A stretch of 64,000 nt of DNA from assembly GCA_002343075.1 (NCBI GenBank), contig DDRH01000028.1, positions 67,273-131,272 of the forward strand, given 5' to 3'. A program made the position numbers and the translations under genes. Below the pieces are notes generated by a model. It saw nothing but the letters and a program-made list of their open reading frames with translations, did no database searches and was not told where the DNA came from. Positions 58,160 through 61,114 of the stretch are shown here, piece by piece. The stretch is from Phycisphaerales bacterium UBA2421 (GTDB taxonomy: Bacteria; Planctomycetota; Phycisphaerae; Tepidisphaerales; Tepidisphaeraceae). Position 1 is the stretch's first letter. The number at the start of each line of letters is the position of its first letter.

Positions 58160-61114
58160 ATGAGCAGCAGCAACCAAAAACAGATCCGCATCAAGGGCGC
58201 CCGCGAGCACAATCTCAAAAATCTCCAGATCGAAATCCCTCGCGATAAGCTCGTCGTCATCACCGGACTTTCCGGCAGCGGCAAGAGTACCCTCGCATTT
58301 GACACCGTATACGCAGAGGGCCAGCGGAAATACATGGAATCGCTGTCGGCGTACGCGCGGCAGTTTCTGGACATGCTCCAGAAGCCCGACATTGACGAAA
58401 TCGAGGGCCTGCCGCCCACCATTGCCATCGAACAGCGGTCGGCATCGTCCAATCCGCGGTCGACTGTCGCCACAACCACAGAGATTTATGATTACCTGCG
58501 CGTCCTCTTCGCTCGCGCCGGCACGCCGCACTGCTGGGTTTGTGGAAAGACCGTGGCTTCTCAAAGCGCATCGCAAATCGTCGATGCGGTCATGCAGCAC
58601 CCCGCCGGCACGAAAGTGATGATCCTCGCCCCGCTGGTTCGGCAGCAGAAGGGAGAACACAAGGAAACCTTCGCCGCGATTCACAAGCAGGGGTTTGTGC
58701 GCGCCCGCGTTGATGGGGAGATCCTGGAACTGCAATCGCCGGACAAAGCGCCGGCGCTGGCAAAGACCTTTAAGCACGATATCGAAGCGGTGGTCGATCG
58801 AATCGTGCTCAAACCCGAAATCAGGAGCCGATGTGCCGATTCGATCGAGACGGCCCTCAAGCTGTCGCAGGGACTGGTCATCCTCGCGGTCGAATCGGCT
58901 GGCAAGTGGGCCGATCAGCTTTACAGCGAAAAGTTTGCCTGCGCCGATCACCCCGAAGCCAGCCTGCCCGAACTTGAGCCGCGCGTCTTCAGCTTCAACT
59001 CGCCCCAAGGGGCGTGCCCGACGTGCCACGGCCTGGGGACCGTGCAGGAGTTTGACCCGGACATGGTCGTGCCCGATGACTCCCTCACACTTGAAACGGG
59101 CGCGATCGAGCCGTGGCGAAAAAATGGCAAGCGGATGAATGTGTTCTACAGCCGGGTGCTGCGGCAGTTCTGCAAGGATTTTGGCATCGGTTACTCCGTG
59201 CCGGTCAGGGAAATTGATAAGAAGGTGAAGGATGTGCTCTTCTTCGGCACCACAGCCAAGGGCGATTTGGGCACGGGCACGGATTTTGAAGGGATCATTC
59301 CCAACCTGCAGCGGCGGTTTGTGAGCACCGAGAGCGAGTGGGTCAAGCACAAGCTGCAGGATTACATGTCAGAGCAGCCGTGCGAATCCTGCCGCGGCAC
59401 GCGGCTGAAGCCCGAAGTGCTGGCTGTGCGAATCCGTAGCACGGGTTTTCAACCCGTTCTTCCTGCGCTATCCAGCACCGAGCCACCGAAAAAAAAGCCG
59501 AAGAATAATGCTAAGAATGGGTTGGAAACCCATGCTACGGTGCCACTCCCCGGCTCATCCATCCACGACATCACCGTGATGACCGTCGAGAGGGCCAAGG
59601 CGTTTTTTGAGAATCTCAAGCTGAGCAAGGAAGGAACCAAGATCGCCGAGCCGATCGTGCGCGAGATCGGCGCGCGCCTCGGGTTCATGGTCGATGTCGG
59701 CCTGGGTTATCTCACCCTCGACCGAAAGACCGGTTCGCTCTCCGGCGGGGAGGCGCAGCGCATCCGGCTGGCCACGCAGGTCGGCAGCGGGCTGGTTGGG
59801 GTGGCTTATGTGCTGGACGAACCGACCATCGGACTGCATCAGCGCGACAACACCCGCCTGATTCGCACGCTGCTCCGCCTGCGCGATATCGGCAACAGCG
59901 TCATTATGGTGGAACACGACGAAGACTGTATCCGCGCCGCCGACCATTTGATCGATATCGGCCCGGGTGCCGGGATTCACGGCGGGACGGTCGTTGCACA
60001 GGGCGACATGCCCGCAGTGCTCAAGCAAAGGGCGAGCGTTACGGTCCAATACATCACCGGCGAGAAGCAGATTCTCGTCCCCCCGGCCCGGCGGCCCGTC
60101 AACCCCGCCAAAGCCGCGATCGAACTGAAAGGCTGCACCGCCAACAACTTAAAGAGCGTCGATGTAAAGATTCCCCTCGGTGGGCTGGTTTGCGTCACCG
60201 GCGTGAGCGGCAGTGGAAAATCGACGCTGGTCAATCAGACTCTTCTACCCGCGCTCAAACGCAAGATCTATAACAGCCGGGTGCGCGCCGGCGCACACAA
60301 GACCATCAACGGCCTCAAGCAGATTGATAAAGTCATCGAAATCGATCAATCCCCCATCGGCCGGACACCGCGGAGCAACCCTGCGACCTACACCGGCGTT
60401 TTTGATGACATCCGCAAGACATTTTCACAAACCCGCGAAGCCAAGATCCGCGGCTACGAAATGGGCCGGTTCAGCTTCAATGTCAAGGGCGGCCGCTGCG
60501 AGTCGTGTCAGGGCCAGGGCACCAAGTGCATCGAGATGCATTTCCTGCCCGATGTTTATGTCAACTGCGAAGTGTGCCGCGGCAGCCGATACAACGCCGA
60601 AACCCTCGAGATCCACTACCGCGGAAAGAATATCGCCCAGGTGCTGAATATGACGATCGAAGAAGCGCTCGGCTTTTTCGAGAACTTTCCACGCGTGCAT
60701 CAAATGCTCAAGGCGATCAACGATGTCGGCCTTGGCTATGTAAAACTCGGCCAGCCAAGCACGCAACTGTCCGGCGGGGAGGCGCAGCGCGTCAAGCTCG
60801 CCACCGAACTCGGCAAGACCGCTACGGGGCACACGCTGTATGTGCTCGACGAGCCGACAACCGGCCTGCACTTCGCTGACATTCAAAACCTGCTCAATGT
60901 CCTGAATCGACTCGCCGACATGGGGAACACCGTGCTGGTGATCGAACACAATCTGGACGTCATCAAGTGCGCCGACTGGATCATCGACATGGGCCCCGAA
61001 GGCGGTACCGGCGGCGGCGAAGTCATCGCCACGGGCACGCCCGAACAACTCGTCGGCGTTAAGGGCAGCTTTACCGGCGAATACCTCGCGCCCAAGCTCC
61101 ACCCAAGCCCCTGA
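58160..61114 (+). CDS. uvrA: Excinuclease ABC subunit A with in-frame palindromic insertion
   Basis: The 984-residue protein has two ABC ATPase modules. Walker A sites are [12 protein letters not shown] and [13 protein letters not shown], signatures are [12 protein letters not shown] and [12 protein letters not shown], and zinc-finger Cys pairs are CPTCHG, CESCQG and CEVCRG. With UvrB it recognises damaged DNA in nucleotide excision repair. It is about 40 residues longer than typical UvrA because an extra segment (~residues 426-466) lies between the conserved [10 protein letters not shown] and [10 protein letters not shown]. It is encoded by a palindromic element at 59434-59540. ATG 58160 ([21 protein letters not shown]) fits the family start. 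Confidence 0.93.
59434..59540 (+). repeat. Palindromic element inserted in frame in uvrA (STGFQPV-type)
   Basis: A 107-bp element is bounded by a perfect 8-bp inverted repeat CCGTAGCA (59434-59441)/TGCTACGG (59533-59540). Each arm contains a smaller hairpin (GGGTTTTCAACCC and TGGGTTGGAAACCCA), and a poly-A-rich centre lies between them. In the + frame it encodes STGFQPV at one end and GLETHATV at the other. UvrA lacks this segment elsewhere. Confidence 0.75.

Follow-up and report, generated by a model that had tools for sequence, protein, structure and literature searches.

How does a palindromic block come to stand in frame inside a conserved repair gene, and where would such a block come from? 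These questions are raised by the uvrA gene of the window (the whole stretch of 64,000 nucleotides of DNA that was analysed). A preliminary description had recognised a palindromic element with a perfect outer inverted repeat and a mini-hairpin in each arm, in frame within uvrA, adding about 40 residues and suggestive of a repeated genomic element that can live in coding DNA. These observations were borne out, and the block can be named more exactly: it is a doublet of GTAG-type REPs (a REPIN), and the same genome holds a RAYT that bears the same REPs. The relevant features of the window are:

58160..61114, plus strand: uvrA (excinuclease ABC subunit A), the host gene, an uninterrupted ORF of 984 aa
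59434..59540, no strand assigned: REPIN, two inverted REPs and a spacer, read through in frame
59434..59457, plus strand: REP arm 1, GTAG tag at 59436-59439 and then the hairpin ACGGGTT-TTC-AACCCGT, translated R-STGFQPV
59458..59516, plus strand: spacer between the REPIN hairpins
59517..59540, minus strand: REP arm 2, minus-strand GTAG tag at 59538-59535 and then the hairpin ATGGGTT-TCC-AACCCAT
59435..59557, plus strand: UvrA loop, residues 426-466, a site of varied inserts in the family

The palindrome within uvrA

The 984-aa product exceeded the cut-offs of both NCBIfam TIGR00630 and PRK00349. The arms of the palindrome (59434-59461 and 59513-59540) are 28 nt each, 89% complementary and 51 nt apart, the outer repeat CCGTAGCA/TGCTACGG is a perfect match and a small hairpin lies within each arm. 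Folding of the DNA gave -25 kcal/mol compared with -11.7 +/- 2.6 for shuffled sequences (z -5.1, 0/200 as stable). Each arm is a palindrome with a GTAG tag at one end, as REPs are, and a search of the 64,000-nt window at up to three mismatches returned only these two arms (shuffle expectation 0.00). On the plus strand arm 2 is translated NGLETHAT. The unit from GTAG to CTAC measures 103 nt and exceeds by 39 nt the 64-nt units of carB and crtI described below, and the spacer may include older linker sequence. A stretch of the spacer, GCGCTATCCAGCACCGAGCC (window 59465-59484), resembles a second REP-like palindrome, GGGCTATCCAGCCCGAGCC, that was observed at L035:3633-3670, adjoining the embedded RAYT described below.

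The solved UvrAs 2r6f and 9gxk can be aligned before and after query residues 426-460 but have no residues of their own opposite this stretch; in 2r6f query residues 425 and 463 both meet chain residue 441. Relative to these structures ~37 residues are extra, close to the number first proposed; part of this length may be old, as the loop is always filled in the family (18 loops). A target-duplication footprint, suggested beforehand as something to look for, was not seen by eye at the uvrA copy. No exact empty site could be demonstrated among relatives, because the nearest of them (77% UvrA identity) hold other inserts there.

The REP family and a RAYT inside a helicase gene

The genome (4.47 Mb in 67 contigs, 91% complete) was searched with the REP pattern at up to two mismatches, and the arms, far from occurring only once, were found at 42 places, 24 of them mismatch-free, compared with 0 for the reversed pattern used as a control. 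The 42 REPs form 10 inverted pairs less than 150 nt apart and 22 single places. Arms of the CATGGG and CACGGG types are paired in six of the nine pairs other than uvrA and likewise, with reversed orientation, in the uvrA copy. From GTAG to CTAC the uvrA pair spans 103 nt and the carB and crtI pairs 64 nt each, lengths that are in every case 1 mod 3, whereas the other seven pairs measure 68, 60, 61, 60, 60, 68 and 78 nt and only one of them is 1 mod 3. Those three of the ten pairs lie in frame within long ORFs of conserved genes, and a further REPIN was seen by eye in feoB. Extragenic location, which is part of the name REP and not of the mechanism, therefore does not hold for the uvrA copy and three others. 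The further genic features of the genome are:

L017: in-frame REPIN in carB, the gene for the carbamoyl-phosphate synthase large subunit
L020: in-frame REPIN in a crtI-type phytoene desaturase gene
L026: in-frame REPIN in feoB, one arm beyond the mismatch limit
L035:3005-5704, minus strand: RAYT in frame within a DinG/YoaA-type helicase gene, with the same REP on its flanks as in uvrA

The genic REPINs are translated as STGFQPV at the 5' end and LETHAT at the 3' end (LKTHAT in crtI), and the insert in the desaturase includes 16 residues without counterpart in the solved homologue 4dgk. Two other matches, each with two mismatches, were not counted as genic REPINs: one lies upstream of the enzyme domain in a dihydrolipoyl dehydrogenase ORF (C53) and the other is in the other reading frame of an RND adaptor (C55). 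The five genic copies (uvrA, carB, crtI, feoB and DinG-RAYT) all have the C-like arm encoding STGFQPV towards the 5' end of the host gene and the T-type THAT arm towards the 3' end; this orientation bias has an n of only 5, and the reverse orientation is equally open for reading. Several of the single REPs at L001, L008, L013, L015, L016, L027 and L030 have, by eye, similar long flanks, and contigs C20 and C54 start 18 bases ahead of such a single REP. Single REPs with shared flanks look like the termini of some longer repeat, at which the assembly is also interrupted.

Searching the genome with PF01797 found Y1 transposases at four places. Only the match on contig C32, at C32:89326-89550, lies between REPs (at C32:89234 and 89884); the contigs that carry the three remaining Y1 matches of the window genome yielded no REP. 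A helicase ORF of 899 aa contains this REP-RAYT-REP after VVMTSATLSTG and stays open through it, with the REP ends translated as RSTGFQPVL and KNGLETHAT in the same frames as in UvrA. The helicase flanks scored 608.8 bits over two stretches with NCBIfam YoaA (cut-off 680), and the best structural match of the helicase model was DinG (6fwr). The RAYT part scored 78.6 bits with NF047646 (cut-off 80) and, with PF01797, 24 bits in the genome search and 20.2 in the whole protein (cut-off 23); it also matched the solved TnpArep 4er8 (E 2e-5). The family-model scores of both the helicase and the RAYT are marginal. The active-site residues N564-H565-H567 and Y609, numbered as in the window genome's fusion (P0002), are invariant in 23 aligned fusions. 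A Pfam scan (E 0.001) detected helicase-type and Y1_Tnp domains only and no splicing domain.

Between the helicase site and the LPHW of the RAYT there is no ATG, GTG or TTG in the window genome, and therefore the whole RAYT should be made there only within a fusion, whereas four other fusions of the family that were compared do carry start codons in this stretch. In an AlphaFold model of the fusion (23 sequences, mean pLDDT 71.6, pTM 0.52) the RAYT occupies residues 461-640 with 14 of 18 ten-residue blocks at 70 or above, and the REP-coded linkers lie within two stretches, 420-462 and 646-674, that fall below 50. Judged from its sequence and setting, the C32 RAYT is the probable mobiliser of the REPs, which it would move.

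Recurrent sites in the family and beyond

The UvrA loop was read in 22 of the 26 genomes of the family set, bounded by LAVR[IL] and SI[HD]D in all 23 places; four genomes without a UvrA match stand outside these counts, and the loop of G019 was read and is not among the 22 tested. An inverted repeat was significant in four of the 22 tested loops (G000, which is the window genome, G015, G020 and G009; 0/200 shuffles each). A non-repetitive segment of the same length in most related UvrAs had been named beforehand as an observation that would speak against the element. This was found in part: 18 of the 22 loops are without a significant inverted repeat, but their lengths differ (14-149 residues in the family) and their sequences are mostly unrelated, and the loop is thus hypervariable in any case. 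The loops of G015, G020 and G009 are REPINs of other REP types, and the 3' arm in G009 is read in a different frame from that in G000. The REP type of these three loops was found at 360, 72 and 88 genome places respectively (control 0) with a pattern in which five bases are free, so that the numbers refer to a REP type and not to exact arms. The same pattern occurs at 64, 217 and 113 places in G021, G001 and G012, where the UvrA loops are non-REPIN, and at 9 in G000. In P0120, a UvrA of 1259 aa, the counterpart of the window's REPIN loop accommodates an entire RAYT; the tyrosine column of this RAYT is a phenylalanine, with a tyrosine one residue earlier. A model of the window UvrA (18 sequences) gave pLDDT values of 39, 34 and 37 across residues 431-460. 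The insert may be disordered, of which these values are a weak sign because they are expected for an unaligned stretch with 18 sequences.

The helicase site is also recurrent. The DinG/YoaA-type helicase was found in 23 of the 26 genomes, the three without a DinG match standing outside the counts, and in seven of the 23 a RAYT lies in frame at the same point (G000, G009, G012, G019, G020, G021 and G003, the last followed up to the contig end). The seven represent seven genera, with open frames without stops at the same site. Another 13 helicase genomes have 11-69 residues at that point, which look REP-coded in G001 and G022; the loop was not read in G005, G013 and G015. The nearest named records with the helicase-RAYT fusion are Phycisphaerae and Phycisphaerales MAGs. 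Differences at the three codon positions were 0.37, 0.30 and 0.63 for six embedded RAYTs, compared with 0.25, 0.17, 0.48 and 0.22, 0.13, 0.52 for the two helicase halves, a pattern that points to constraint on the embedded RAYTs at the protein level, weaker than that on the helicase; synonymous sites have diverged too far for dN/dS.

PF01797 gave 125 matches in the 26 genomes, of which 14 lie in open frames of at least 500 aa: seven helicases, four ThiD2/ThiE proteins, two DUF1156 proteins with insertion sites differing from each other and one valyl-tRNA synthetase. The ThiD2/ThiE proteins have a C-terminal RAYT and come from four family genomes (L273, L274, L275 and L276). The valyl-tRNA synthetase of G011 (L272:622-5472, plus strand) contains a different Y1 transposase at a site other than that of the usual ValRS insertion, the transposase being flanked by peptides of the ASPERERGV and LAHARGS kinds that recur elsewhere in the same ORF. 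G011 is 96% complete and has a single match to the ValRS C-terminal domain, in the transposase-holding ORF; a second copy may possibly have been overlooked.

A wider protein search with the RAYT part, confined to proteins of 0.55-1.75 times 899 aa (2465 candidates, E 1e-3 or better), matched 329 proteins, of which 120 were listed and examined, including P0002 itself. Their host classes are presumed from precomputed Pfam accessions. Among these 120 are 26 DinG-type helicases, 15 ValRS, 6 LeuRS, 2 other class-I synthetases and 7 AlaRS; 4 MetH, 2 IspG, 5 PF01555 proteins, 15 other methylase or restriction-modification proteins and 3 HsdR; 6 chorismate-binding enzymes, 8 NAD synthases, 6 Sua5 and 1 UvrA; and 5 TPR/NACHT-type and 9 other or unassigned proteins. 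The HsdR-RAYT protein P0021 belongs to a cultured planctomycete, Schlesneria sp. DSM 10557. The insertion site within a host is usually constant, as seen in 23 of the 26 DinG-type proteins that were aligned (P0035, P0077 and P0112 were excluded as short fragments) and by eye in ValRS, LeuRS, AlaRS, NAD synthase and Sua5, although the site in the PF01555 protein P0013 differs from that of the other four. In an alignment of the embedded RAYT domains the HUH residues are present in 126/126 and the tyrosine column in 120/126. A crude motif script run on the 120 proteins had detected the tyrosine motif in 68, a count that the alignment supersedes, and the start anchor of the RAYT in 93. It placed REP-like peptides on the upstream side in 64 proteins and on the downstream side in 62; these peptide counts are unrefined, and therefore REP-coded ends hold for some fusions, not all. 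Some database protein names already join host and RAYT. A search of the open-access literature recognised no description of RAYTs in frame within host genes, and an in-frame REP-RAYT-REP in the loops of several enzymes is, as far as could be found, an apparently undescribed variant.

A tree of 126 RAYT domains was built by a quick method, after matched stretches with a score of 100 or less or of fewer than 150 residues had been dropped, and 48 of its 122 inner branches are weak. It clusters by host, with 32 label changes compared with 91.8 in shuffles. Of the DinG RAYTs 23/26 form one well-supported group; that of the window genome lies outside it together with P0092, and P0103 is elsewhere. 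The RAYTs of ValRS and of the methylase group account for seven and eight changes respectively, and so are not of single origin on that tree. P0109, a ValRS RAYT, was placed among those of NAD synthase and P0083, a LeuRS RAYT, among those of Sua5. Each of the MetH and IspG proteins (P0003-P0008) contains two RAYTs, and in the tree the first copies group apart from the second. The simplest reading of the tree would be long residence in a host with occasional jumps between hosts; it is possible that the host-crossing positions come from tree error or contamination.

Origin of the uvrA copy and known systems

In layout the uvrA copy is a non-autonomous REPIN built of two inverted GTAG-tagged REPs. 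Very probably it inserted in a surface loop of UvrA that tolerates such additions, and remained there because its REPs and spacer are free of stops and its length preserves the frame. The REPs would be moved by the C32 RAYT, the sole REP-flanked Y1-type transposase found in the genome. The gene of this RAYT is itself an in-frame passenger of the DinG/YoaA-type helicase, in which the REP ends would serve as linkers on either side of a folded RAYT domain. The REPIN and the REP-RAYT-REP would then be the short and long coding-compatible forms of one element that persists in the loops of conserved proteins; the hosts would work with the insert, and coding compatibility would keep the copies. Genomes that differ in the presence of the uvrA copy were not encountered as a pair, nor was movement of a REP observed.

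The uvrA copy may not be one clean insertion, as its 103-nt unit is the longest of the ten pairs (60-78 nt in the others). Two single REPs could instead have inserted separately around an old lysine-rich linker, and the translated spacer does resemble the lysine-rich linkers of some relatives. However, this copy joins a C-type (CACGGG) to a T-type (CATGGG) arm, as do six of the nine other pairs, and its spacer starts TTCTT and finishes AAGAA like several of them, and separate insertion is rather unlikely. The variable length of the loop and the 18 tested loops without an inverted repeat would suit an ordinary hypervariable linker in which the palindrome is a coincidence, but the 42 genomic copies against a control of 0 refute coincidence and the fold z of -5.1 argues in the same direction, leaving this account a negligible probability.

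Two other explanations concern what keeps the elements in place and whether the long forms are real. REPs have been viewed as acting at the level of RNA or DNA (PMC3733652) and the hairpin of the uvrA REPIN is strong, so that it might be kept for a role in mRNA structure, transcription or supercoiling, with translation incidental. This appears improbable, since the frame is kept in all four genic REPINs found and the UvrA loops of relatives are filled with mostly unrelated sequence. A slightly poorer prospect still is that only the short REPIN is real and that DinG-RAYT and the other long fusions are broken host genes or gene-calling errors. An earlier census of Y1 proteins did discard unexpectedly long ones as gene fusions or annotation errors (PMC6006769), and three of the 26 listed DinG-type proteins are fragments. 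Against this stand the stop-free frames at one helicase site in seven genera of the family, the six hosts confirmed over curated NCBIfam cut-offs with one protein each (UvrA, ValS, AlaS, MetH, NAD synthase and TsaC) and the lone ValRS C-terminal match of G011 in its transposase-holding ORF. If the fusions are real, a RAYT census from which long proteins are excluded overlooks some of the family.

A bolder proposal than the short and long forms favoured here is that REP-RAYT-REP is a distinct mobile element, intein-like without splicing and coding-compatible at its ends, which settles time and again in particular loops of housekeeping proteins and occasionally jumps between hosts, and that the DinG fusion may be a functional helicase-HUH nuclease; this is conceivable and tentative, and on the whole somewhat doubtful. 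The RepHel proteins of Helitrons are helicases with a built-in HUH nuclease. If the proposal is true, DinG-RAYT would be of the same build and would couple REPIN movement to helicase action at repair or replication forks.

Inteins are in-frame passengers with a nuclease fold in conserved genes, among them those of helicases and aminoacyl-tRNA synthetases, and they occupy recurrent sites. DinG-RAYT is likewise an in-frame passenger with a nuclease fold at a recurrent site of a conserved gene, but it is without a splicing domain and the insert is expected to remain in the protein. The fusions suggest that conserved enzymes of the valyl- and alanyl-tRNA synthetase kind can retain in frame a transposase gene whose active-site residues are intact. 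How a mobile element survives where the genome is compact, namely by doing no harm as protein, becomes testable.

Rickettsia palindromic elements are in-frame palindromes present in many genes, to which they add tens of residues. The likeness in idea to these elements that had been drawn at the outset is sound, as both are dispersed families inserted in frame in ORFs. The repeats of R. conorii correspond to RPE-4 and RPE-6 and are treated as CGTC repeats (PMC3733652), whereas the tag of the window REP is GTAG; the comparison is one of tags, not of sequence. CGTC repeats were described there without association with a transposase, whereas a probable transposase has been identified for the window REP. 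Palindromes embedded in proteins, a puzzle in Rickettsia where no transposase is tied to them, here have a case with a probable mobiliser.

Studies of TnpA-REP and of REPs offer closer parallels. In vitro, single-stranded REPs are cleaved by the HUH/tyrosine site of TnpA-REP proteins from E. coli, Stenotrophomonas and Marinomonas (PMC8266576). Cleavage of REP DNA is at CT, and in one system with a GTGG tag the cut is at CC (PMC8266576), so that relatives' arms with a GTGG tag are plausible substrates too. The REPINs and RAYTs of Pseudomonas fluorescens SBW25 are alike in having inverted REP doublets and REPs that flank RAYT genes, but there 14 of the 1,067 most abundant 16-mers overlapped genes (PMC3116915), compared with at least four genic REPINs and 42 REPs here. 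A study in 2013 reported REPs in ORFs, many of which serve repair and replication; the uvrA genes of Opitutus terrae and Thioalkalivibrio are among them (PMC3733652). Those REPs are also GTAG palindromes, single or in doublets, with inserts often of 20-30 residues, and recB of two Xanthomonas species was struck at nearly the same site (PMC3733652). In that study the position of the REP within uvrA varied, whereas in the present family a single UvrA loop is the site of several REP types. The uvrA REPIN itself is therefore of an already reported sort. REP-flanked RAYT genes were also described, though none in frame inside a host gene in the part of that study drawn on here (PMC3733652), and the novelty of the present case is its probable RAYT source, which lies in frame in a helicase.
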